Positions 1,628-18,036 of a stretch of DNA of 41,655 bases are shown here, in pieces. The position numbers and the translations under genes are program-made. The notes under the pieces were generated by a model. It saw only the letters and a program-made list of their open reading frames with translations. It had not been told where the DNA came from and searched no databases. The stretch is from a virus: positions 1 through 41,655 of the IMG/VR virus record IMGVR_UViG_3300038701_001512. The stretch is one strand, 5' to 3'. Position 1 is the stretch's first letter, and every line of letters starts with the position of its first letter.

Positions 1628-3900
1628 TTGATTTATTTATTGGTGCAGGCTGGCATACAGTTCCACTAAAGGGTGAGCTTACTCGTCTTGAAAGTGGTAA
1701 GAAGACTATACCTGTTTTTGAAGAAAATTGGCGAAACAAATATACAAAAAAGTTTAATGAAACTAGTGTAAAACTTGCTGGTGCAATTACTGGTGCGTGT
1801 TCTAATATAATTGCAATCGATTGCGATAATCAATTTACTTATGATTTGTTCAAACGATTTGATCCTGATTATGATTTTCACTTTATATCGAAAGGAAAGC
1901 CTGATGGTGGCGGTACAATTATTTATTCTTATAATAGCGATGTGGGTAGTTTTAAGCTTAACACAGACGAAATCGCGCTGGACTTTTTCTCAGATGAGGG
2001 GTTTGTGTATCTGCCGACGGAAGCTAACCAAACTAAGGAAAGCTGGCAAGGAGTGGAAAAACTCCCGGAAATAAAAGAAGTACCTTTTGAAGTATTAGTG
2101 CTATTAAAAACGTTTAAATCAAAAGTTCCAGCTGTAGGTGTAAATCAAACTAAACCACGTACTGTTATTTCAAACAGACTAGCTCCTATGGTTGAAAACT
2201 TCGTAAAGCGTAAAAAGTATGAACCAACTTTATTTAAAGTACTAACTCCCTATAGCTTTCGAGATTTACCTAGTTATATAGCTAAGGGACATTTACATCC
2301 TAACGACGTTCCACAAGGTAGAGGTAGTGAATATCTTAACAAAGTTAGTGCTATACTTGGTGCAGATATATCTATTAGTAAAGAATTGTATACAAATACT
2401 ATGATGCTTATTAATTCTTTTTGGGATGATCCAATGGAAAAGAGTAAGCTTAATAAAACTATTCTTGAACCTATGATTGAAGAACGTGCTACTGTTGATG
2501 GTGACGTTATATGGAAATATGACGAGCACTGGGAACAAATGGGTTTTATAGCAACATCACTTAATGGAGACTATCTTGAAAGCTTTTACGACGACGTTAA
2601 AGGATTGTACTACCTTATTAATTATACCGTACCCTATGTCAAAGTTTACGGTGACAAGCGCCCTGTTATTACTACACTCAAGACGTTGCTTGGTCGTACG
2701 ATCACGGAGGTACAATATGATAGCACTAAACAACTTATCCGTACTTCTCTCAACCCTGCCCTCGAGTTTGGCCATATGGAAGGCGGAGACATGTTCAACC
2801 TCTTTAGACAGACTGCTGAGCTCAATGTACTTAACAACCCGGCGCCGTATTCAACACAATACAATAGACCAAAGCATATTCTTAAATATTTCGAAACTTT
2901 AATACCTGATGATTTTATGCGTGGTTATGTATTATCATTCTTAAAGACTAAGCTAACTACTTTTAAATATAGTCCGGTTATTCTATATATGATAGGTAAA
3001 CCCGGCTCTGGTAAAGATACAATGGTAAACATACTAGGTAAAATAATTGGCGCAGATTATATAGCTAAACCTGATACAAAAGTATTTCTTGAGCAGTATA
3101 ATGGTTGGATGCTTGATAAATATATCATTCAACTAGATGAGTATGGTAATAAATTGAACAAATCAAGTGAAAAACAAGAAGCATTAGGTAAATTAAAAGC
3201 TTATACAGGTTCATCAGAAATGCAAATACGTGCTATGAGACAGGACGGCTTTAATTATAAACATAGTATTACTTTTGTTATGACAGCTAACTCTAATCCT
3301 TTACCTGTTGAAACAGATGATAGGCGAGTATGCTTTATACGTACACCTAATCGATTAGATAAGCAAGAATGGGTTGTTGAAGCGGGTGGTATATCTCATG
3401 TACATGATACTATTATGACAGAAATTATGGATTTTTGTTATTATTTAGCAACTGAAGTTAATGTGCTTAAAAGTGATGATTATGTTATTGCACCGGAAAC
3501 TGAAGACAAAGAAAAACTTATTCTTGAAAGTCTTCCAGCTGCTGAGCAAATTATCTACTACATACAACATTCAAAATATAAAGAGTTAGAAGAGTTAGCA
3601 GCAGAGTACGGTGTACGTGACTTTAACGAGACATGGGAGAAAAATCGTTTGCAAGGTAGAGCGCTTGAAGAGCTATATGATGCAATGACTGAAGGCAATG
3701 GAACAAATAGAACGATAATTAAAATGATGAAAGCTATTGGATTGTCTCGCAGTCATACTACAGCTGGTGGACAAAATGTATTTTATTGGTTTATTCAGGA
3801 CTTACATTTATACACTGATAGAAAAAGAAATGAAGACACTGAGAACGATGGATTTGTTAAAATAGATACTAGTACTGTTGTACCGAAAGGATTAAGATAA
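1621..3900 (+). CDS. Primase-polymerase / superfamily 3 helicase (759 aa)
   Basis: Likely replicative primase-helicase. The N-terminal ~170 residues look like a bifunctional primase/polymerase domain: GWHTVPLKG near residue 10, then IIAIDCDN with the D67-x-D69 metal pair and a later GGGTIIY strand. The C-terminal half is a D5/SF3-type AAA+ helicase: Walker A GKPGSGKDT at 459-467, Walker B IIQLDE with D506/E507, then FVMTANSN and DDRR. Both activities would act at the phage replication fork. It overlaps the genes on both sides by a few bases. The helicase assignment is strong; the primase half rests on motif pattern alone. Confidence 0.88.
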   Translation: MLIDLFIGAGWHTVPLKGELTRLESGKKTIPVFEENWRNKYTKKFNETSVKLAGAITGACSNIIAIDCDNQFTYDLFKRFDPDYDFHFISKGKPDGGGTIIYSYNSDVGSFKLNTDEIALDFFSDEGFVYLPTEANQTKESWQGVEKLPEIKEVPFEVLVLLKTFKSKVPAVGVNQTKPRTVISNRLAPMVENFVKRKKYEPTLFKVLTPYSFRDLPSYIAKGHLHPNDVPQGRGSEYLNKVSAILGADISISKELYTNTMMLINSFWDDPMEKSKLNKTILEPMIEERATVDGDVIWKYDEHWEQMGFIATSLNGDYLESFYDDVKGLYYLINYTVPYVKVYGDKRPVITTLKTLLGRTITEVQYDSTKQLIRTSLNPALEFGHMEGGDMFNLFRQTAELNVLNNPAPYSTQYNRPKHILKYFETLIPDDFMRGYVLSFLKTKLTTFKYSPVILYMIGKPGSGKDTMVNILGKIIGADYIAKPDTKVFLEQYNGWMLDKYIIQLDEYGNKLNKSSEKQEALGKLKAYTGSSEMQIRAMRQDGFNYKHSITFVMTANSNPLPVETDDRRVCFIRTPNRLDKQEWVVEAGGISHVHDTIMTEIMDFCYYLATEVNVLKSDDYVIAPETEDKEKLILESLPAAEQIIYYIQHSKYKELEELAAEYGVRDFNETWEKNRLQGRALEELYDAMTEGNGTNRTIIKMMKAIGLSRSHTTAGGQNVFYWFIQDLHLYTDRKRNEDTENDGFVKIDTSTVVPKGLR

Positions 3901-4264: not shown

Positions 4265-5576
4265 ACTACTAGAAGATTTTAAAACTTTTATGGCTGATGA
4301 TACTGCGCCTGAAATGTATATTCAAGGAGTTGCAGGAACAGGTAAAACAACCGGCCTTGGTGAAATACTTATCTATTGTCAAAGTATGAGATATGTGACA
4401 GTAACATGTGCCTATACACATAAAGCTGTTAAAGTTTTATCTTCTAAATTACCTCCTATAACTACAACGCATTTAATATGTACTTTGCATAGTTATTTAA
4501 AGAAACGTCCTACAATTAATGATACAGCAACTAAAGTTTCTCATGTAGAAGGTAATACACAATTAGAAATACCTGATAGTGTGGACGTAATTTTTGTTGA
4601 TGAGTTTAGTATGATAGGTGAAAAAGATTATGTTGATCTTAAAGCTTTGCAATATGATGAAGATGGTAAACTATTAGTTAAAATTGTTTATATAGGCGAT
4701 CGTAATCAGTTACCTCCAGTCAAAGATCAACAAACAATAGTACCGCATGGAGATCACGTACATACACTTACGAAAATATATCGCCAAGCTGATGGAAATA
4801 AATTGATAGATACACTATTAGACATCAATGATTATATCAATGGTAAACCAGCCGAAGCTTTAGCAGAACATAGTAACTTTAAGCGTAACACAGATATTGT
4901 AGAAGGTTACAAAAATTGTAAAACTAGTAAAATATTGCTGGCTTATACTAATGCGCGTGTTGAAACATTAAATGCAAACATTCAAGGTTACTCTAAACCT
5001 TTGAAAGATGATTTATTATTTTCACCAACACTACGAAAGTTTTTTAACTTAGGTGACACTTTACTACAAACTAATAACATTATAAATATTATGGGTGATA
5101 TTGTTGAACTAGATAGTAAGTATAAGACACTAGAAACATTACATGATATTGCAGGTATTAAATTTTATGAATTAATTGATACAGATGGAAATGAATTTTG
5201 TTTTGCTGCTGTATTTGGACACGAAGGTTATTTACAAGTTTCTAGAGATTTGGCTGGTGAAGCTGTTAAGATTAACAACCGTATACTTAATCAATTTAAT
5301 ACTGATGCTAAATCATGGGCGAAGAGTAATTGGCAGCATCCACTAGCTAAGGAAAGAGCAAAAGCATGGCGTTATTATCTAGCATTTAAAACAAACGTTA
5401 TTTGTTTAGACTTTCCGCACGCTATGACTATTCATAAGTCTCAAGGTAGTACATATGACAATGTGTTTCTTGACATGAATGACATAGGTAAATGTGCCAA
5501 TAATGATTATCAATTGTATTTAAAACTTTTGTACGTAGCCATTAGTAGAGCTAGTGATACTGTATATACTAATTAA
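4257..5576 (+). CDS. SF1 DNA helicase, Dda/RecD2-like (439 aa)
   Basis: All main SF1B motifs are present in order: GVAGTGKTT (Walker A, residues 24-32), VIFVDEFSM (Walker B, D115/E116), YIGDRNQLPPV (motif III, about 145-155), a KIYRQ motif IV, AMTIHKSQGSTYDNV (motif V), and YVAISRA (motif VI) close to the C-terminus. The size matches compact phage helicases such as T4 Dda. Expected role: 5'-3' unwinding and protein displacement during initiation or recombination. Start chosen for AGGAGA upstream and overlap with the preceding gene. Confidence 0.92.
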   Translation: MAELLEDFKTFMADDTAPEMYIQGVAGTGKTTGLGEILIYCQSMRYVTVTCAYTHKAVKVLSSKLPPITTTHLICTLHSYLKKRPTINDTATKVSHVEGNTQLEIPDSVDVIFVDEFSMIGEKDYVDLKALQYDEDGKLLVKIVYIGDRNQLPPVKDQQTIVPHGDHVHTLTKIYRQADGNKLIDTLLDINDYINGKPAEALAEHSNFKRNTDIVEGYKNCKTSKILLAYTNARVETLNANIQGYSKPLKDDLLFSPTLRKFFNLGDTLLQTNNIINIMGDIVELDSKYKTLETLHDIAGIKFYELIDTDGNEFCFAAVFGHEGYLQVSRDLAGEAVKINNRILNQFNTDAKSWAKSNWQHPLAKERAKAWRYYLAFKTNVICLDFPHAMTIHKSQGSTYDNVFLDMNDIGKCANNDYQLYLKLLYVAISRASDTVYTN

Positions 5577-5589
5577 AGAAAGATTAAAC

Positions 5590-6018
5590 ATGATAGAAAA
5601 TAAATCACAATTGTATAATATATGTGAAGATGTTATTGAAACTGAAGACGTAACACATATTATAAAAGATTTGAAAGCTACAATTTATAACAATACTGAT
5701 AGATATCCAGTAGGGTTAGCCGCAAATCAAATAGGTTATAACAAACGTATTATAGTTTTAAATACACCTAGTTTTAAACACGCAATGATAAATCCAGTTA
5801 TAGTTAAAAAATCAAAGCAAATGACAACACAAAATGAAGGTTGTTTATCTTTTCCTAAAGATTTTATTATACCTGTTACAAGGCATAAGCAAGTAACTGT
5901 TGAGTGGATTAATGAACAAGGTAAAAAAGTTAACCAAAAATTTCGTAACTTAGACTCTCGTGTTATACAACATGAAATAGATCATCTTAATGGTATAACT
6001 TTAGAGGAGTATGTTTAA
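5590..6018 (+). CDS. def: Peptide deformylase (142 aa)
   Basis: Metalloenzyme that removes the formyl group from the initiator methionine of new proteins. All three family motifs are intact: GLAANQIG, NEGCLSFP (metal-binding Cys) and QHEIDHLNG (HExxH). I prefer the ATG at 5590, giving MIENKSQLYN; the longer frame from 5554 overlaps the helicase end and adds MILYILIKER. Phage deformylases are known from marine phages and are usually short, as here. It precedes the HAD gene directly, with no gap. Confidence 0.93.
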   Translation: MIENKSQLYNICEDVIETEDVTHIIKDLKATIYNNTDRYPVGLAANQIGYNKRIIVLNTPSFKHAMINPVIVKKSKQMTTQNEGCLSFPKDFIIPVTRHKQVTVEWINEQGKKVNQKFRNLDSRVIQHEIDHLNGITLEEYV

Positions 6019-8063: not shown

Positions 8064-9749
8064 ATGGAACCAGTACCTTATGAATTTAAAACTGTTGAAG
8101 AATTAAAAGATCTTATTGACTATGAAGAACTTGTAATGTTCGATACAGAAACAGTTGGACTATACGGCAAAATTCGCCTTGCTCAATTTCATCAAAAGTC
8201 TTGGGGCCATAAAGCAATTATGGTAGAATATCCCGATCCTTTTGCATTAGTTTCGGCGTTAACAAAAGCTCATTGTGTTATGCATAATGCTCATTACGAT
8301 ATTACAACAATACAGGAAAATCTTGGGCATATAACTTGGATGCCTGAACAATATGAATGTACTTTTTTACTTGGTAGATTGCATTATTATACACAAGATA
8401 GTTTTAGTCTTGATAATATTGTTATGTACGTTTTAGGTGTAGACATATATGGCGACGATAAAAAAGAAATGCATAAAGCTGATTGGAGTGTACCTATTCT
8501 TTCAGATAAGCAACTAGCTTATGCTGCAAGTGATGTTGTTTACTTACAACATGTATATGATGAAGTTAAAGCACAGAAAGATAATATAAATTATAAACTT
8601 GATATTTTAGCTAGTCGATATGCATTAGATTTTCAGAATAATGGTTTACCTTTTGACGAGGAAAAACTAAACTCACAGTATTCAAAAAATCAAAGACGTA
8701 TTGAAGAAATTGCGTTACCTATTAATTGTAATTCTTGGCAGCAAGTTCGACCTTATATTGGCTCACAGATGTCTGATGATTTAGGTTTATCTACTTTGAT
8801 TGCACAAGGTAATGAACGTGCTGCCGCGGTTAAAGAGACACGTAAATTAACTAAGGAAAACTCATTTCTAACTAAGTTTCTTAATACTGAAAGAGAAGGT
8901 TGTATTTTTGGTAAGTTCAAGTTTTCTCCTCGTTCAGGCCGTTCTTCGTCTGACGATCAAAACTTACAACAATTACCTAGATCAACTAAAGGTATATTTG
9001 GTGTATCAACTGAATGTGATGATGTTTTAATTTACTCAGACTTCTCACAAATGCAATTGAGAGCTGTTTGTGCTGTTACTGGCGATGTTACAATGCAAGA
9101 GCTATTTAGACAAGGAGAAGACTTACATGACTATGTTGCAAAAATTATTTTCGGTGAAGACTTTACAAAGACACAACGACAAATTTGTAAGACAGCTAAC
9201 TTTGGACTTTTGTTTGGTGCAGGGGTTGCAACCTTCCAAAATATTTTGCTCAAGCAAGCAGGACTATCGTTATCAGAAGACGAGGCCATGCGTATCAAGA
9301 AGAAATGGTTATCATTATGGAAGCAAGTAGCAGCGTGGCAAACTTCAGGCATTCGTGCTTGGAAGAAAAAAGATGCGTGGGAAACTCCACTAGGTAGACG
9401 ATACACAGCAAAAATGATGACAGATCAACTAGCAATGCAAATTCAAGGTTTTGAAGCAGAAGTAGCAAAGTTAGCAATGCATTATATGCTACCTAGGTTA
9501 ACTGAACTAGATAAGCGTATCAAATTACGTAACTTTGTTCATGATAGTTATATCTTTACATGTCCTAAAGAACGTATATTATATGAACAAGCTAGTTTAA
9601 TTATTGCCGAAAGTATGCAAGAAGGCTGGACTGAAATGTCTCAATCTGTTATGATTAAAGATCTACCAATGCCTGTGAATGTACGGGTAGGTTATAACTG
9701 GGGTGACATTGAGAATGGTGAATTTATTTACGAGTTTAACAAAGATTAG
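8064..9749 (+). CDS. Family A DNA polymerase with 3'-5' exonuclease domain (561 aa)
   Basis: Replicative polymerase. The proofreading domain is at residues 20-170: Exo I FDTET (D27, E29), Exo II HNAHYD (D79), Exo III Y153-x3-D157. Polymerase domain: motif A SDFSQMQLR (D326), motif B R372-x3-K376-x3-F380-G, then LLFG, and motif C VHDS (D494). Catalytic aspartates are intact. Three positions conserved in E. coli Pol I differ: Glu710 is Gln331, Tyr766 is Phe384 and Glu883 is Ser495. The compact length fits phage PolA enzymes lacking a 5' nuclease domain, which is encoded separately at 14285. Confidence 0.95.
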   Translation: MEPVPYEFKTVEELKDLIDYEELVMFDTETVGLYGKIRLAQFHQKSWGHKAIMVEYPDPFALVSALTKAHCVMHNAHYDITTIQENLGHITWMPEQYECTFLLGRLHYYTQDSFSLDNIVMYVLGVDIYGDDKKEMHKADWSVPILSDKQLAYAASDVVYLQHVYDEVKAQKDNINYKLDILASRYALDFQNNGLPFDEEKLNSQYSKNQRRIEEIALPINCNSWQQVRPYIGSQMSDDLGLSTLIAQGNERAAAVKETRKLTKENSFLTKFLNTEREGCIFGKFKFSPRSGRSSSDDQNLQQLPRSTKGIFGVSTECDDVLIYSDFSQMQLRAVCAVTGDVTMQELFRQGEDLHDYVAKIIFGEDFTKTQRQICKTANFGLLFGAGVATFQNILLKQAGLSLSEDEAMRIKKKWLSLWKQVAAWQTSGIRAWKKKDAWETPLGRRYTAKMMTDQLAMQIQGFEAEVAKLAMHYMLPRLTELDKRIKLRNFVHDSYIFTCPKERILYEQASLIIAESMQEGWTEMSQSVMIKDLPMPVNVRVGYNWGDIENGEFIYEFNKD

Positions 9750-9995: not shown

Positions 9996-10558
9996 TGACT
10001 AATATATTCGAACAAGGACTAGATGAAAAACATTGTATGGTTGATTTGGAAACACTGGGTACTAACTCACGTTCTCCCGTCATTCAGATTGGTTTAGTAT
10101 TTTTTACTATTCAAGGTATTCAAACACAAAGTCTTTTAACAGTTGATTTTGATGATGCTTTGAAATACGGTAAAGCCGATGGCTCAACAATTAAATGGTG
10201 GCTGCAGCAAGACACAGCAGCGCAAAAAACATTGTTTGAAAATCCTCGTTCTGCTGAAGAATGTGCTGAAATCATTGAAAAATTAATTACCGCACAAAAC
10301 CCCAATTATTTTTGGGCTCACGCTACTTTTGATTTTCCTATTTTGAATAGTATGTTTGACGCTATGGGCCGTAAAAGACCTGTACCATTTAGAACAGCTT
10401 ATGATTTGCGAACACTTGAATACTTTGCCGGTAATAATATAGAATGGGAAAAGCGAGAAGGTGTGTATCATAATGCACTTGATGATGCAACTTATCAAGC
10501 TAAGCATGCTATTAAAATGCTTCGTTATATTAAAACATTGAAAGGAGAGTTAAAATAA
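9995..10558 (+). CDS. DnaQ-like 3'-5' exonuclease (187 aa)
   Basis: DEDD-type exonuclease: MVDLETLGTNS carries the first Asp/Glu pair, HATFDFPIL gives the second Asp, and YHNALDDATYQA gives the HxAxxD end of the DEDDh type. Composition and length resemble the phage/Rv2179c-like (DUF5051) exonuclease group, which degrades single-stranded RNA or DNA ends. It follows a polymerase that already has a proofreading domain, so it more likely serves degradation or processing than proofreading. Confidence 0.85.
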   Translation: MTNIFEQGLDEKHCMVDLETLGTNSRSPVIQIGLVFFTIQGIQTQSLLTVDFDDALKYGKADGSTIKWWLQQDTAAQKTLFENPRSAEECAEIIEKLITAQNPNYFWAHATFDFPILNSMFDAMGRKRPVPFRTAYDLRTLEYFAGNNIEWEKREGVYHNALDDATYQAKHAIKMLRYIKTLKGELK

Positions 10559-10761
10559 TGGCTATTGCAGTTACAGTTAAAAATCCAAATGCTTTACGTA
10601 AAACAACTATTAATAGTAAAGAGCAAAAAAGAAAAGGTTGGTCTACACCTTATGGTTTTATTGACGCAGACAAACCTGTCACATATAATGAAGCGTTACG
10701 AATGGGCGCTGAGTTAGAGAATAGATTAAATGATATAAAAAGTGAGAAAAAAGATGTTTAA
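10558..10761 (+). CDS. Small basic hypothetical protein (67 aa)
   Basis: GGAG upstream, ATG overlapping the exonuclease stop. Lysine-rich N-terminus (RKTTINSKEQKRKGW) followed by a helical acidic end. It might bind nucleic acid; no family recognised. Overlaps the next gene slightly. Confidence 0.65.
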   Translation: MAIAVTVKNPNALRKTTINSKEQKRKGWSTPYGFIDADKPVTYNEALRMGAELENRLNDIKSEKKDV

Positions 10762-11017
10762 ATTAAACGACTATAGAATATTTGAAATATTAGTTAGTGC
10801 TGCTGTTGCTTTTACTGCTGAATATTTATTCAACGCACCTGAAAAAGTAGTATTGATATTATGGATAGCAGTGTTTTGGTTTTTAATTCTGTCTTTGATG
10901 CAGGACTTTATTGAAACAATTAGTTTTGCGTGGTCTAAGGGCAGAATATCTTGGGAGCGTAAACAAGTTTTACAACAACTAGGTGAATTACAAAAACTTA
11001 TTGAGGCTTTAAAATGA
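10754..11017 (+). CDS. Small membrane protein with two hydrophobic helices (87 aa)
   Basis: ATG 10754 (MFKLNDYR) is preferred over the in-frame GTG at 10742. Hydrophobic stretches at about residues 10-27 and 35-51 (VVLILWIAVFWFLILSL) predict two membrane segments, followed by a charged cytosolic helix. It ends four bases into the ThyA-family gene. Function unknown. Confidence 0.65.
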   Translation: MFKLNDYRIFEILVSAAVAFTAEYLFNAPEKVVLILWIAVFWFLILSLMQDFIETISFAWSKGRISWERKQVLQQLGELQKLIEALK

Positions 11018-11835
11018 CTGATAATTGGGAAGCAAGACAATACGGTGCATTAATTAATAAAATTATGCATAAAGGACAAAAAAGAGAAACACGTAATTTA
11101 GCCACTTATTCAATTTTTGGTGAAGTGATTGAAATTGATATTAGTAATTACTTTCCTTTATTACAAGGACGAAAAATGTTTTATAAGCCTGTATTAGGTG
11201 AATTAGCAGCAATGTTACGTGGACCAAAGAACGTACAAGATTTTAAAAAATTTGGTTGTAACTATTGGGATAGTTGGGGTTCTGAACCGACAGACAATCA
11301 CCTTGGTGGTGATATTGAGGTAGATTATGGGAATGCATGGATTGATTTTAATGGGTTTAACCAGCTTGAAGACGTGGTTGACAAACTACAAAACAATCCT
11401 GCAGATCGTCGTATTATTGTCTCAGGTTGGCGTCCTGACAGGCTTGATAAGCTCAGTCTGCCTTGCTGTCATATGCTCTACCAGTGGTATGTGCGAGGTG
11501 AATACCTTGACATGGTATGGTATCAGCGGAGTGTGGACACTATGGTCGGTTTACCTTCTGATATTATTCTTTGTGCTGCGTGGAATATTATTTTGGCTAA
11601 CCAATGCGGATATAAACCAGGTGTTATTAAATTGGTATTGGGCGATACTCACATATATGATAACCATGTTGGTGCCACTCTCGACTATTTACGGCAATTA
11701 AATAAAGTTAGTAAACCTAATCAAGTAAAATATGAAATAGACAAAACAGCTACTATTTCAAATTTCCGTCCTGAAATGTTAATTCTAGGTAATTACGAAC
11801 CTCAACCAGCTGTTAAATTTGATTTAAACGTATAG
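11014..11835 (+). CDS. Thymidylate synthase family enzyme, predicted dCMP methylase or hydroxymethylase (273 aa)
   Basis: Clear ThyA fold: R26 in the phosphate loop, E63, DRR at 131-133, active-site C152-H153 in LPCCH, QRS at 171-173, and GDTHIYDNH near 210-220. These match E. coli ThyA R21, E58, C146, QRS and H207/Y209. The dUMP-selecting Asn177 of E. coli (in GLPFNI) is Asp183 here (GLPSDI). That change is the hallmark of T4 dCMP hydroxymethylase, and the N229D mutant of L. casei ThyA accepts dCMP. I therefore infer a dCMP-modifying enzyme. The alternative is an unusual thymidylate synthase. Confidence 0.85.
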   Translation: MTDNWEARQYGALINKIMHKGQKRETRNLATYSIFGEVIEIDISNYFPLLQGRKMFYKPVLGELAAMLRGPKNVQDFKKFGCNYWDSWGSEPTDNHLGGDIEVDYGNAWIDFNGFNQLEDVVDKLQNNPADRRIIVSGWRPDRLDKLSLPCCHMLYQWYVRGEYLDMVWYQRSVDTMVGLPSDIILCAAWNIILANQCGYKPGVIKLVLGDTHIYDNHVGATLDYLRQLNKVSKPNQVKYEIDKTATISNFRPEMLILGNYEPQPAVKFDLNV

Positions 11836-11978: not shown

Positions 11979-12154
11979 CACAGAAGAGAACAACTAAAGC
12001 CGAACGAATACGAGCAATTGCCGGTGAGATAGAAATAAAAAGTGCAGAGAAGCAAAATGCTTTACAAGGTATACGAGAGGCTAATGCATGGCTTACACGG
12101 GTAGATAGTGAATTACACAATTTACATCAACAATTAGAACTGGAGTTAAAATAA
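11975..12154 (+). CDS. Small coiled-coil-like protein (59 aa)
   Basis: Begins in an ATGA overlap and ends in a TAATG overlap with the MazG-like gene. Basic N-terminus (MTQKRTTKAERIR) followed by a long charged helix with leucine/isoleucine spacing (LHNLHQQLELELK). Coding is supported mainly by the tight junctions. Function unknown. Confidence 0.6.
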   Translation: MTQKRTTKAERIRAIAGEIEIKSAEKQNALQGIREANAWLTRVDSELHNLHQQLELELK

Positions 12155-12726
12155 TGCAAGCTATGACAATTACGGATAGAGTTATTCTTTGGAATAAACA
12201 ACGTTACGAGCAAGAATATAACTATGATTTAGCCGCGCAGCTTTTGTTAGAAGAAACTTCTGAGTTATTTGAAGCTAAATCTGATATTGATAAGCTAGAT
12301 GCTATTGGTGATATCTTTTTTGTAGCAATTGGTGTATTTTGGAAACTAGGCTTACCTAATGAAGTTATCCAACGTATATTTCATGATTTAGATTTAACAA
12401 AAGCAACTATTGAAGAGACTAATGATTTGTGTAATAACATTGAATACGCTATTATGGAAGAAGTTAGTGATGTTATTGGCGCTTATCCAGGTATTAAGTT
12501 AGCTTGCTATTCTGCATTTATTTGTGCTTTAGGTACGTTAAGAGGTATGAATATGCAACATACAATATATGACATTGTTCATGCTATTTGTGACAGTAAT
12601 CATACCAAAGAAATTAAAGGTAAAACACCTTCACATATTAAAGCTAATATAAATAAAGGTAAAGGCTACAAACCACCTACAGAAGCTTTAATGAATATTT
12701 ATAAGCAAAACAAGATTATTCATTAG
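12154..12726 (+). CDS. MazG-like nucleoside triphosphate pyrophosphohydrolase (190 aa)
   Basis: All-alpha NTP pyrophosphatase pattern: LLLEETSELFEA (E33, E34, E37) and, one helix later, KLDAIGDIFFVAIG (D49, D53) form the metal-binding EExxE/ExxD-like core. The C-terminal CDSNHTKEIKG...KGKGYKPP resembles the tail of phage MazG-type enzymes. It hydrolyses non-canonical or excess (d)NTPs to NMPs, so it could supply dCMP to the neighbouring deaminase and ThyA-family enzyme. Start with GGAG eight bases upstream. Confidence 0.82.
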   Translation: MQAMTITDRVILWNKQRYEQEYNYDLAAQLLLEETSELFEAKSDIDKLDAIGDIFFVAIGVFWKLGLPNEVIQRIFHDLDLTKATIEETNDLCNNIEYAIMEEVSDVIGAYPGIKLACYSAFICALGTLRGMNMQHTIYDIVHAICDSNHTKEIKGKTPSHIKANINKGKGYKPPTEALMNIYKQNKIIH

Positions 12727-12735
12727 GAGACTAAT

Positions 12736-13404
12736 ATGACTAGAGATGAACTACATAAAAGATTAATTGAAGTAGCTGCCCAATCACCAGCTAAAAAACG
12801 TAAAGTTGGCGCTATTATAGCTGTTGAATGGAAAGACAATGACTTTTGTATTATATCAGAGGGTTATAATTTTAATCCTTCCGGTGGCCCCTGTGAAACT
12901 GAAGAAAATATTACTCATGAAAATGTTGTACATGCAGAAGTAAATGCTATTAATGAGTATATTAAAACAGACTTAAAACTATTTGCCGATAGTCATGGTT
13001 ACGGACCGGAAATTACACAAAGTCAATTAAAGCTTTATTGCACTCATCCCCCTTGCGATGGTTGTAAAGCTGCTATTCTTGCTGCAAATATTGAATACGA
13101 AGTTATGGGTGATTTTCTTAAATTTGACAGTAACAAACCACGTATGGCCTTAGTTCCTGCCTCACTAGGTTACGAAGTTGGCAGAGTTGTCACTTACGGA
13201 GCCAAAAAATACAAAGTTAATAATTGGCGTAAAGTTAAGTCACAAGAACCTTATATTAACGCACTTGAGCGCCACTTAGCAGCGTATAAAAACGGTGAAG
13301 TTAACGATCCGGAAAGCGGTCTAAGTCACATGTCACATATTGCGTGTAATGCTGCATTTTTACTAGAGTTACAAGACTTACCAATTATAGAAGGAGATAA
13401 ATAA
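12736..13404 (+). CDS. dCMP deaminase fused to a DUF5664-like domain (222 aa)
   Basis: Residues 1-125 are a zinc-dependent deoxycytidylate deaminase: HAE at 66-68 (zinc His and catalytic Glu) and PPCDGC at 105-110 (zinc Cys107, Cys110). Residues about 132-215 (KPRMALVPASLGYEVGRV, TYGAKKYKVNNWRK, then ERHLAAYKNGE, DPESGLSHMSH) match the DUF5664 pattern found in phage dATP/dGTP diphosphohydrolase-like proteins. It would convert dCMP to dUMP and may hydrolyse a nucleotide. AGGAG lies directly upstream. The fusion is noteworthy. Confidence 0.88.
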   Translation: MTRDELHKRLIEVAAQSPAKKRKVGAIIAVEWKDNDFCIISEGYNFNPSGGPCETEENITHENVVHAEVNAINEYIKTDLKLFADSHGYGPEITQSQLKLYCTHPPCDGCKAAILAANIEYEVMGDFLKFDSNKPRMALVPASLGYEVGRVVTYGAKKYKVNNWRKVKSQEPYINALERHLAAYKNGEVNDPESGLSHMSHIACNAAFLLELQDLPIIEGDK

Positions 13405-13793
13405 TGGAAATATTTACAGCTGAATTTATAAATAATATAGCAAGAATTTGTCATGAAGCTAATAGAGCTTATTGTGTAACTATTAACGATCATTCGCAAC
13501 AACCATGGTGTAAAGCACCAGAATGGCAAAAAGATAGCGCTCGTAAAGGTGTAAAACTACATTTAAATGAATTGTACGATGGTAATATACCTCTACCAAG
13601 TAAATCTCATGAAAGTTGGCTAGCTGAAAAATTAAACTCTGGTTGGACTTATGGCGATACTAAAGATGAAACAAAAAAGACACATCCTTGCTGTGTGCCA
13701 TATGATAATTTACCGAATGAGCAAAAAGTAAAAGATTATTTATTTATTTCAATCGTAACCGCAATGTATAAAGGAAGACAAAATGCAAAATAA
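13404..13793 (+). CDS. RyR-domain protein (129 aa)
   Basis: Shows the ryanodine-receptor repeat (RyR) signature seen in many phage genes: ICHEANRAYCVTINDHSQQPW near residue 14, HESWLAEKLNSGWTYG in the middle, and KTHPCCVPYDNLPNEQKVKDYLF near the end. RyR domains in phages have no proven role; nucleotide or ligand binding has been suggested. Start overlaps the deaminase stop with GGAG upstream. Confidence 0.85.
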   Translation: MEIFTAEFINNIARICHEANRAYCVTINDHSQQPWCKAPEWQKDSARKGVKLHLNELYDGNIPLPSKSHESWLAEKLNSGWTYGDTKDETKKTHPCCVPYDNLPNEQKVKDYLFISIVTAMYKGRQNAK

Positions 13794-15121: not shown

Positions 15122-15378
15122 TGAGTGACGAACCTATGACAGCCAAAGAGGCAATTAAATATATTGCGAAAGAATTTAACGTTCCTTCGCGGTATGCAAT
15201 GTCTAAGCAACTATCAGATGAGGAGTTAACAGTACAACCTATACAAATAAGTAATTATATGAATGGCACTAAAATGAGTGAGAAAGTAGCAAAGCGTTTT
15301 AATGAGGTGTATGGTGTTCTCATTAGTGACATTCATTACCCTTCTGACTTTCGCCGCACTTCACAAGAGGACATTTGA
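15121..15378 (+). CDS. Helix-turn-helix DNA-binding protein (85 aa)
   Basis: Residues 25-70 resemble a Cro/CI-type HTH: SRYAMSKQL as first helix, then QPIQISNYMNGTKMSEKVA as turn and recognition helix, and VAKRFNEVYGVLI. TAATG overlap with the exonuclease. In a genome with no integrase it is likelier a regulator of phage or host transcription than a lysogeny repressor. Confidence 0.72.
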   Translation: MSDEPMTAKEAIKYIAKEFNVPSRYAMSKQLSDEELTVQPIQISNYMNGTKMSEKVAKRFNEVYGVLISDIHYPSDFRRTSQEDI

Positions 15379-16637
15379 TGACTAAAATTACACCTTGGCC
15401 TGAACAAAAAGCTATGGCCGGTGAGGCTATTAAAGTGCTAAAAGAGCACGGATTAGTCTATCTAGCTATGGAAGAAAGAACAGGTAAAACATTAACAGCT
15501 ATTCTTATAGCAGAAGATACTATTGCTAATCGTATATTAGTTATATCTAAGAAAACCGCGTTAAAAGGTTGGAATGACATGTTAGATGGTTATATTCATC
15601 TTAGTTCATATACAGTAGTAAACTATCATCAAGCTCATAAAGTTAAAGGTGATTTTGATTTAGTTATTTTAGACGAGCCACACAATTATGTTAGTGGTTA
15701 CCCTAAAACATCTGCCATGTGGAAAAATATACACAAACTTGTTTATGGTTTACCAATTATATATATGTCTGCTACACCTAATGCTCAAGGTGTGCAATTA
15801 TTATTCAACCAATTTAAATTGTGTAAGTTTTCGCCTTGGGATCATTATGAAGACTTTTATGAGTGGTTTAAAAAATTTGCTAAAAGAGATGGAAAAGGTA
15901 ATTTACCAGTTACTTATATTGGTAATAATAGAACGGCTATTGACTATAAAAAAATTGAACATGATTTAGCTTTTTCTGAAGTAGAGCATTTGTTTCTAAC
16001 TAAAACAAGAGCTGAACTAGGTTTTGAGCACGAACCGGAAGATGAGTTACATTTTATCGATTTAGACGAGACAACAAGAGGTGCATATAATGCTTTAATA
16101 AAACATAATGTATTAGAATTCTCTCACCAAGCTACAAATCGTGACTATTCTATAATATGTGACAGCGGTATTAAATTACGTTGGACTTTGCATATGTTGG
16201 AAGGTGGTGTACTTAAGTATATTGAAATAGTTAATAAGAAAGAAAAAGTACATTATTTAGTTTTAAATAATAGTGAAAAAATTGACTATATGTTAAATGT
16301 CTGGGGTGATACTAAAGATCTTGTTATAATGCATCAATATAAAGCCGAAGCTATAAAACTACAAGCAATATTTAAAAAAGCACGAATTTTGCAAGCAACT
16401 AGTTATGCTGAAGGTGTTGATTTGTCAATGCATAAACATTTAGTTATTTATTCGCAAGATTTTAGTACAGCAAGACATACACAAAGACGTGCAAGACAAG
16501 CCAATAAAAATAGAGATGAAGAAATTAAAGTTCATTATCTATTAGTTAAAAAAGCAGTTAGTGAACAAGTATATAATGTGTGTTCTAAAAATAAAAAGAA
16601 TTTTGTTGATAGTTTATTTGAAAGGGAAGAGCTATGA
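15378..16637 (+). CDS. SF2 (SNF2/DEAD-like) DNA helicase (419 aa)
   Basis: Start at ATG 15378 in a TGATG overlap. Motif I EERTGKTLTA (about residues 31-40), Walker B LVILDEPHN, motif III MSATPNAQG, motif V YAEGVDLSMHKHLVIYSQ and motif VI QRRARQ are visible in order. Similar helicases in phages act in replication-fork remodelling or recombination. It sits between nuclease and ligase genes, which fits that role. Confidence 0.88.
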   Translation: MTKITPWPEQKAMAGEAIKVLKEHGLVYLAMEERTGKTLTAILIAEDTIANRILVISKKTALKGWNDMLDGYIHLSSYTVVNYHQAHKVKGDFDLVILDEPHNYVSGYPKTSAMWKNIHKLVYGLPIIYMSATPNAQGVQLLFNQFKLCKFSPWDHYEDFYEWFKKFAKRDGKGNLPVTYIGNNRTAIDYKKIEHDLAFSEVEHLFLTKTRAELGFEHEPEDELHFIDLDETTRGAYNALIKHNVLEFSHQATNRDYSIICDSGIKLRWTLHMLEGGVLKYIEIVNKKEKVHYLVLNNSEKIDYMLNVWGDTKDLVIMHQYKAEAIKLQAIFKKARILQATSYAEGVDLSMHKHLVIYSQDFSTARHTQRRARQANKNRDEEIKVHYLLVKKAVSEQVYNVCSKNKKNFVDSLFEREEL

Positions 16638-16810
16638 GTTATGAAATATTACAAGCAAACAACGGTTTTATATTACGACCGAGAAGTGATTATGACAGAG
16701 GTGTTTCCATAGAAAGAGATGTTTTTGTTTTTAACACAGCTAAAGACTTAGGTCAACACATAACAGAAAATTTTAAAACTTTGCAAGAAGAAAAGGAAAG
16801 ACAAGAATGA
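16634..16810 (+). CDS. Small hypothetical protein (58 aa)
   Basis: ATGAG overlap with the helicase stop and GGGAAGAG just before. Begins MSYEILQANNGFILRPRSDY, a likely beta hairpin, and ends in a charged helix (LQEEKERQE). Its stop overlaps the ligase start. Function unknown. Confidence 0.6.
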   Translation: MSYEILQANNGFILRPRSDYDRGVSIERDVFVFNTAKDLGQHITENFKTLQEEKERQE

Positions 16811-18036
16811 TGATATTACCCAACTTACGTGCGAACTCAAGTAGAATAGTAAAAGAACAAATATTAGATCATGCTTCTGAATTAGATAAATTAATGTTTC
16901 AATATGCTTATCATCCTATTAATACTTATGGAGTGAAATTTGACAATATTGATTATTCGACTGTTCAAAATCCTACTAAAGAGATGTTTGACATTTTAGA
17001 CGAGTTAGCAGACAGAACATTAACAGGTAACGAAGCACGTGAAACAGTCGAGGCTTTTGCATTTGAAGATGGTGATTTAATTAAACTTATTTGTAATAGA
17101 GATTTAGATTGTGGCGTTACAGCTACTACGTTGAATAAAGTTTTTGGTAAAGGTTTTATAAAACAATTTAAAGTTCAACTTGCTAAAGAAGTAACACTTG
17201 ATAAAGTTAAGTTCCCTTGTATTGCACAAATTAAATATGACGGTGTTCGTGTTATTGCAATAATCAAGTCACATAAAAATAAAGTTATATTTAAAACACG
17301 TAATGGTAAAGTATTTGAATATCCTGCACTTGAAAAAGCTTTATTATCTTGTAAGTTACCTGATCTAGATATTATATTAGATGGTGAATTAACCTTAGGA
17401 ACTTCATCTGCATCTAATCATACAAATGTTAGTGGGGCTGTTACATCATCTATGCGTGGTAATCCTATTCCAGGTGCTAATTTTGTTTTTAACGTATTTG
17501 ATTTTATGTCTATCGGTGATTTTTATTCACAAACTAATGATAATATTTATGGCACACGATTTGCTGCTGCGAAAACTATTGTAGATAATATACAATCAGA
17601 TCTAGTAAGAATTGCTGAAACACATAATATAGCTACAGCTGATGAAGCTAATAAAATGTTTAATGAAGTTTATAAACAAGGTTATGAGGGTTTAATATTA
17701 AAACATTGGCATCATTTATATACATTTAAACGTAGTGCTGATTGGGTTAAAATGAAAGCTATTAAAGATTGTGATTTGAAATGCGTAGACATTAAAGAAG
17801 GCACTGGTAAGTATCAACATCAAATAGGTTCTCTTATTTGCGAAGGCATGGTTGAGGGTAAATTTGTTATAGTTGATGTAGGCTCTGGTTTAACTGACAT
17901 GCAAAGAGAAACAGCTTGGGATTGTTTCGTAGGTGAAACAATTGAAATTAAATACAACGAGCTTATTAAAGACAGTATAACAGGTGATTGGAGTTTATTC
18001 TTACCTCGTTTTGTAACTATTAGAATGGATAAATAA
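16807..18036 (+). CDS. ATP-dependent DNA ligase (409 aa)
   Basis: Nucleotidyltransferase core: motif I KYDGVR with adenylated Lys143, then FKTRNGKVFEYPAL, ILDGELTL (motif III), EGLILKHW (motif IV) and DWVKMKAIKDCDL (motif V). A C-terminal OB-fold region follows (SGLTDMQRE...EIKYNELI). The N-terminal ~125 residues are helical and DNA-binding-like, as in T7/T3-type ligases with an extra N-domain. Seals nicks after primer removal. Start at 16807 (MMIL) with AAAGGAAAG upstream. Confidence 0.93.
   Translation: MMILPNLRANSSRIVKEQILDHASELDKLMFQYAYHPINTYGVKFDNIDYSTVQNPTKEMFDILDELADRTLTGNEARETVEAFAFEDGDLIKLICNRDLDCGVTATTLNKVFGKGFIKQFKVQLAKEVTLDKVKFPCIAQIKYDGVRVIAIIKSHKNKVIFKTRNGKVFEYPALEKALLSCKLPDLDIILDGELTLGTSSASNHTNVSGAVTSSMRGNPIPGANFVFNVFDFMSIGDFYSQTNDNIYGTRFAAAKTIVDNIQSDLVRIAETHNIATADEANKMFNEVYKQGYEGLILKHWHHLYTFKRSADWVKMKAIKDCDLKCVDIKEGTGKYQHQIGSLICEGMVEGKFVIVDVGSGLTDMQRETAWDCFVGETIEIKYNELIKDSITGDWSLFLPRFVTIRMDK

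Follow-up and report, generated by a model that had tools for sequence, protein, structure and literature searches.

The stretch of DNA analysed here (the window, 41,655 nucleotides of a viral genome record) carries a gene of the thymidylate synthase (TS) family within a conserved cassette of genes, all on the plus strand. The features to which we refer are:

8064–9749, plus strand: family A DNA polymerase, upstream anchor of the conserved cassette (PF00476, phrog_17, synteny)
11014–11835, plus strand: predicted dCMP 5-methylase, ThyA-family, with Asp at the dUMP-selecting position (273 aa; PF00303, solved-structure alignment, AlphaFold2)
11458–11469, plus strand: codons of Leu149-Pro150-Cys151-Cys152, with a methylase-type Leu at Cys-3 and the catalytic Cys152 (alignments; signature from PMC6400193)
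11560–11562, plus strand: codon of Asp183, the equivalent of E. coli ThyA Asn177 and T4 gp42 Asp179 (HMMER and MAFFT alignments)
11815–11832, plus strand: C-terminal tail, FDLNV and the preceding residue, present as in TS and missing from T4 gp42
12154–12726, plus strand: all-alpha NTP pyrophosphatase (MazG-like), candidate dCTPase (PF01503 at 1.1e-4, phrog_671, clade alignment, model)
12736–13113, plus strand: dCMP deaminase domain with HAE and PCxxC zinc motifs (PF00383 at 6.8e-12, phrog_2369, sequence)
13120–13374, plus strand: dATP/dGTP diphosphohydrolase-like N-terminal domain, fused behind the deaminase (PF18909 at 6.2e-30)
15375–16637, plus strand: SNF2/ResIII helicase, downstream anchor of the conserved cassette (synteny)
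16807–18036, plus strand: ATP-dependent DNA ligase (PF01068 and PF14743)

The protein encoded at 11014–11835 matches PF00303 over 264 of 266 model positions (1.1e-63, profile search) and has the fold, catalytic Cys, phosphate-binding Arg residues and QRS and GD.H.Y motifs of the TS superfamily, the conserved residues including Cys152, Arg27, Arg132, Arg133, Arg172, Ser173, Asp175, His213 and Tyr215. Its AlphaFold2 model (pLDDT 94.2) superposes on ThyA chains and ternary complexes up to the final residue (Z 34–35, rmsd mostly 1.3–2.2 Å). A canonical dUMP thymidylate synthase has Asn at E. coli position 177; here the motif GLPSDI aligns to GLPFNI of E. coli ThyA, and both HMMER (against solved TS chains) and MAFFT place Asp183 unambiguously in the column of E. 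coli Asn177 and T4 gp42 Asp179. Asp at position 177, as expected of a dCMP 5-methylase of the Xp12 type, is thus present. The initial annotation, made by eye, had proposed a ThyA-family ORF with Asp183 at the Asn177 site, retaining the catalytic Cys, phosphate-binding Arg, QRS and GDTH-type motifs, and had pointed to an Asp at the same site in T4 dCMP hydroxymethylase. All of this is borne out by the profile match and by the alignment with ThyA and T4 gp42 that it had suggested, in which Asp183 falls in the Asn177 column and not elsewhere.

Since Asp is shared by 90 of the 92 TS ORFs of the window's clade, recognised by Cys at position 145 together with Ser or Ala at 176 (some of the contigs being overlapping or duplicate), Asp183 is not a sequencing slip. 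All 80 bacterial TS examined have Asn and none has Asp; Asp-clade members were not among the best 80 bacterial matches, where identity reached at most 36%. When 263 TS ORFs taken from viral contigs and from reference records were compared, position 177 divided cleanly into Asp and Asn. In a maximum-likelihood tree (quick search, SH-aLRT support only), the window falls in a clade of 77 rows (75 Asp, 2 Asn) with a support of 95, and in the same tree Asp has separate origins in at least two further TS lineages. The two Asn rows (L041 and L051) stand on separate branches within the Asp clade and are, therefore, best read as reversions to Asn.

Asp at the Asn177 site also occurs in the td genes of T4-like phages of the genus Gaprivervirus (VR7, VR25, VR26; L164, L170 and L175 at 10001–10849, L267 at 3001–3848), which are annotated as dTMP synthase and lie beside frd; hence the residue alone is no proof of modified DNA. 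A further separate TS lineage has Tyr176-Asp177 (L143, L145, L174 and ~15 related loci). In another variant, the TS ORF of L030 (9080–10780; also in L004) extends to ~567 aa, its N-terminal extension resembling by eye a 5'-3' exonuclease fused in frame to an Asp-type TS.

The MazG-like enzyme and the dCMP deaminase that had been noted within 2 kb are both located by profile matches (12154–12726 and 12736–13404, respectively). The former has the fold and the EExxE plus downstream D metal site of all-alpha dCTP/dUTP pyrophosphatases, the site being intact and its residues (E33, E34, E37 and D53) invariant in the clade alignment; the folds nearest to its model (pLDDT 90.6) are dimeric all-alpha dUTPases (Z 8.4–8.7), followed by DR2231 (Z 5.9). 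T4 dCTPase gp56 is a member of the same all-alpha group, which, together with the dimeric dUTPase-like fold, makes this protein a dCTPase candidate. The earlier remark that neither a dedicated kinase nor a dCTPase is visible, therefore, stands for the kinase, as a PF21448 search recognised no dNMP kinase in the window, and gives way for the dCTPase. Across 45 records no convincing match to the T4-type dNMP kinase PF21448 was found. In six lineages, the window's excluded, a dNMP-kinase-like ORF (phrog_139) adjoins the Asp-type TS or lies one gene after it (L031/L032/L033, L039, L069, L073, L087 and L088) and is a candidate methyl-dCMP kinase. Sequence searches of the PDB, made with both the NTPase and the kinase-like protein, returned nothing useful.

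The HAE and PCxxC zinc site of dCMP deaminases is found in the N-terminal domain of 12736–13404, an ORF that also contains the PF18909 domain, and the same joint ORF is present in phages KF-1 and PH1. The gene order polymerase, TS, NTPase, deaminase, nuclease, SNF2 helicase, ligase, VRR-NUC is common to the window, KF-1, PH1 and Amaethon, and VPMS1 has the same order minus the deaminase; the ligase families PF01068/PF14743 are among those associated by MetaGPA with modified-cytosine contigs (PMC8670742). The NTPase was found at 25 of 32 full-flank Asp-clade loci and the deaminase at 29 of 32, versus 4 of 88 Asn-type TS loci in either case, a contrast that partly reflects kinship because the search profiles had been built up from proteins of the window itself. 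Podoviruses that have no Asp enzyme commonly carry MazG-like genes as well (VP93, RIO-1), and an NTPase gene alone is therefore not diagnostic. Counted over whole records, 38 of 42 distinct Asp-clade records encode the deaminase and neither of the two Asn revertants does (Fisher ~0.016), and no PF00383 deaminase is present anywhere in the records of VPMS1 (complete), L031 and L043 despite their Asp enzyme.

Several other genes were observed in these genomes. In L034, L049, L020 and L046 the Asp-type TS adjoins a DUF6378 (PF19905) protein, which by its length and motifs may represent a further family of small all-alpha NTP pyrophosphatase-like proteins. In the window, the deaminase ORF is followed by a small RyR-domain protein (13404–13793, PF02026 at 2.2e-12), a DenV-like pyrimidine dimer glycosylase domain is encoded near the left end (757–1446, PF03013 at 2.5e-5, phrog_624), VPMS1 also having an annotated endonuclease V, and a peptide deformylase (5554–6018, PF01327 at 6.7e-39) is encoded between a Dda helicase and a HAD-domain protein.

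The two Asn revertants provide a natural experiment. L041 is without both the NTPase and the deaminase. L051 is without the deaminase (weaker evidence, as the record is a fragment of only 21 kb) and has acquired a canonical DHFR; in its NTPase, LLKDTVSKF stands at the site of the EExxE motif present in every aligned relative. The altered cassettes of both revertants tie the neighbours to the Asp enzyme, and the loss of the deaminase along with Asp is what would be expected if the deaminase acted on the methylated product. On the other hand, the presence of Asp without the deaminase in VPMS1, L031 and L043 indicates that dTMP supply is not the sole purpose in all members. A DHFR-like ORF after TS in L041, L030, L082 and L050 was a weak match (E 0.038; hhalign probability 10.6) and was not relied on.

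Restriction palindromes are often avoided in the genomes of phages whose DNA is unmodified. We computed the ratio of observed to expected C-containing 6-mer palindromes under a Markov model, and the window showed no avoidance (1.08, bootstrap ~1.0–1.13). The median ratio was 0.90 in 69 Asp-clade contigs versus 0.72 in 48 GC-matched Asn-type contigs (p 9e-10), with 68% of the former and 17% of the latter above 0.87, while composition-matched non-palindromes gave 1.0 in both groups. Among phages known for modified cytosine, T4 scored 0.88 and a phage of the Xp12 genus 0.92; T4-like phages expected to carry gp42 scored 0.92 and T7 0.54. The difference is also seen between phages of related hosts: VPMS1 (0.99) versus VP93 and ICP3 (0.51 each), PH1 (0.98) versus RIO-1 (0.80), and KF-1 (0.93) versus GF-2 (0.69). 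In contigs of the independent Tyr176-Asp177 lineage, C-containing palindromes are likewise hardly avoided (median 0.89), and the two Asn revertants are only partly lower (0.79 and 0.87). The relaxed avoidance is as cytosine protection predicts, the evidence being indirect, as the statistic is observational and confounded by host. The base composition of the window (34% GC, CpG 0.75) is compatible with 5-methylcytosine decay and too weak a sign for use.

The position of the residue, its conservation in the clade, the linked genes and the two natural revertants make dCMP the likely substrate of the window enzyme. In the mechanism that we propose, the ThyA-fold enzyme would take dCMP in place of dUMP and convert it, with methylene-tetrahydrofolate, to 5-methyl-dCMP: Cys152 would attack C6 of dCMP, Asp183 would bind and protonate cytosine N3, the methylene would be passed to C5, and the folate hydride would reduce it to methyl. 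The downstream NTP pyrophosphatase would lower dCTP and supply dCMP, whereas the deaminase would balance dCMP and 5-methyl-dCMP against dUMP and dTMP. In the window's phage 5-methyl-dCMP would be phosphorylated by a host kinase, and in some relatives possibly by the product of the dNMP-kinase-like gene beside the enzyme. The phage polymerase would then put 5-methylcytosine into the genome, by which many type II restriction enzymes would be blocked. Its presence in virion DNA is plausible in view of the loss of palindrome avoidance. As a whole, dCMP methylation followed by 5-methylcytosine in the phage genome is the best explanation of these observations, and one that we place just on the probable side.

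The initial annotation had left open whether the enzyme would methylate or hydroxymethylate dCMP; of this, the dCMP substrate is well supported, and a methyl product fits better. T4 gp42 shows the hydroxymethylase signature, in which the third residue ahead of the catalytic Cys is Asp, the second ahead of the catalytic Tyr is Ser, and a C-terminal tail is absent (PMC6400193). The window enzyme has neither Asp (or Glu) at the first position (Leu149 versus Asp145 of gp42) nor Ser (or Thr) at the second (Val103 versus Ser94), and its tail aligns to the ThyA C-terminus. Instead, it retains the methylase-type features Leu149, His153, Trp85, Trp88, Tyr105 and the tail, and thereby the TS-type methyl-transfer apparatus (Leu143, Trp83, C-terminal tail), from which 5-methyl-dCMP follows as the more likely product by analogy with hydride transfer in TS; these features are drawn from the TS mechanism rather than from Xp12, since the Bosavirus homologue is without Leu143. 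Exchange of Asn for Asp has been found to convert TS into a dCMP methylase, Asp177 is enriched among TS of modified-cytosine contigs, and position 147 is a second site separating modified from unmodified contigs (PMC8670742). The unchanged His at position 147 of the window enzyme counts against the methyl reading. A hydroxymethylase, yielding a genome with 5-hydroxymethylcytosine or a derivative, would share Asp183 with T4 gp42 and, not oxidising folate, would suit the rarity of DHFR beside the Asp clade: 43 of 88 Asn-type TS loci have a DHFR gene within 6 kb, versus 0 of 32 full-flank Asp-clade loci. It also has a precedent in Shewanella phage Thanatos, where modified cytosine occurs together with a putative hydroxymethylase, a dCMP deaminase and a dCTP pyrophosphatase (PMC12838424). 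However, two Asp-clade loci (L063 and L072) do have DHFR, no glycosyltransferase was recognised among the annotated window ORFs, and no carbamoyltransferase (PF16861) in the window or in 23 related records; a hypermodifying enzyme, which 5-methylcytosine would not require, was not recognised either. We consider a hydroxymethyl product unlikely and favour methyl on these sequence features.

The main mechanistic rival to 5-methylcytosine DNA is a pure dTMP bypass, in which 5-methyl-dCMP is only an intermediate that the deaminase turns into dTMP (dCTP to dCMP to 5-methyl-dCMP to dTMP, with no dUMP), leaving virion cytosine unmodified. The close tracking of Asp by the deaminase across whole records speaks for it, as do the AT-rich composition of the window, the Asp in td of Gaprivervirus phages and a 1982 paper on Xp12 whose title reports a new thymidylate biosynthesis (cited in PMC11946847). 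It is opposed by the Asp enzymes of VPMS1, L031 and L043, whose records hold no PF00383 deaminase, by a relaxation of palindrome avoidance matching that of known modified phages, and by the dNMP-kinase-like protein encoded next to the enzyme in several clade members, so that as a sole explanation we hold it to be quite unlikely. It may, however, coexist with 5-methylcytosine DNA: beyond the readings offered earlier, the linked deaminase could convert 5-methyl-dCMP into dTMP. More tentatively, a single dCMP methylase might act as a branch point, feeding 5-methyl-dCMP both into fully 5-methylated DNA and, through the deaminase, into dTMP, and draining dCTP without dUMP, with reversion to Asn dismantling the branch and restoring a TS-DHFR pair; we regard this scheme as possible, if rather doubtful. 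That the enzyme is an ordinary dUMP thymidylate synthase tolerating Asp, with no bearing on DNA modification, would agree with its otherwise TS-like catalytic residues and, again, with the Gaprivervirus td genes. Such tolerance would leave unexplained why a large clade has Asp as a fixed residue, why Asp goes together with the NTPase and the deaminase, and why both Asn revertants alter their partner genes; mutational work also ties Asp to dCMP (PMC8670742), and we judge this reading very improbable.

Few phages are known in which all cytosine is replaced by 5-methylcytosine, Xp12 being the example cited throughout. If dCMP methylation with 5-methylcytosine DNA is correct, a whole clade of small podovirus-like genomes would make modified cytosine; among them are cultured phages infecting Edwardsiella, Vibrio, Pseudoalteromonas and Dickeya whose enzyme is annotated merely as thymidylate synthase. 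It would explain the lack of restriction-site avoidance in the clade genomes and would bear on restriction-based cloning, type IV restriction and nanopore or bisulfite reads. The residue switch combined with the palindrome statistic offers a cheap screen for more modified phages.

The kind of system is already known from Xp12 and MetaGPA; what is new is a large, partly cultured candidate clade with coherent genomic evidence. Xanthomonas phage Xp12 (genus Bosavirus) has a dCMP methylase and a genome in which cytosine is fully 5-methylcytosine (PMC7653180, PMC5175136), the same substrate and product as predicted here. Its lineage was represented by Bosavirus DoCa6, the comparison not extending to Xp12 itself (MT664984), Bosa (LR743532) or FMYAK-P1 (OK275492). 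The DoCa6 homologue resembles the window in its TS fold, Asp at 177 and adjacent dCMP deaminase; in contrast, it is only 26% identical and is without Leu143 and His147, both kept in the window's clade. The engineered dCMP methylases Lactobacillus casei TS N229D and E. coli ThyA N177D have the same single exchange in an otherwise TS-like enzyme, whereas the Asp of the window is natural and clade-fixed and is accompanied by Ser for Phe176 and Cys for Pro145. T4 gp42 has the ThyA fold, base-site Asp and catalytic Cys in common with the window enzyme, but at 21% identity, the latter being without Asp145 and Ser94 of gp42 and having the tail that gp42 is missing. The cultured Edwardsiella phage KF-1 (Kafunavirus), Pseudoalteromonas phage PH1, Vibrio phage VPMS1 and Dickeya phage Amaethon belong to the same TS clade (42–51% identity) and share the polymerase-TS-NTPase-nuclease-helicase-ligase order, with the deaminase in all except VPMS1; their enzymes are annotated only as thymidylate synthase, and we found no report of base modification in them, the search listings of papers on KF-1, VPMS1 and Kafunavirus showing neither restriction digests nor base analyses. 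Finally, the modified-cytosine contigs of MetaGPA combine TS Asp177 with PF01503, PF00383, PF14437 and DNA ligase families (PMC8670742), as does the window in kind, and differ from it in the carbamoyltransferase, absent from the window and from 23 related records, and at position 147, which in the window is His.
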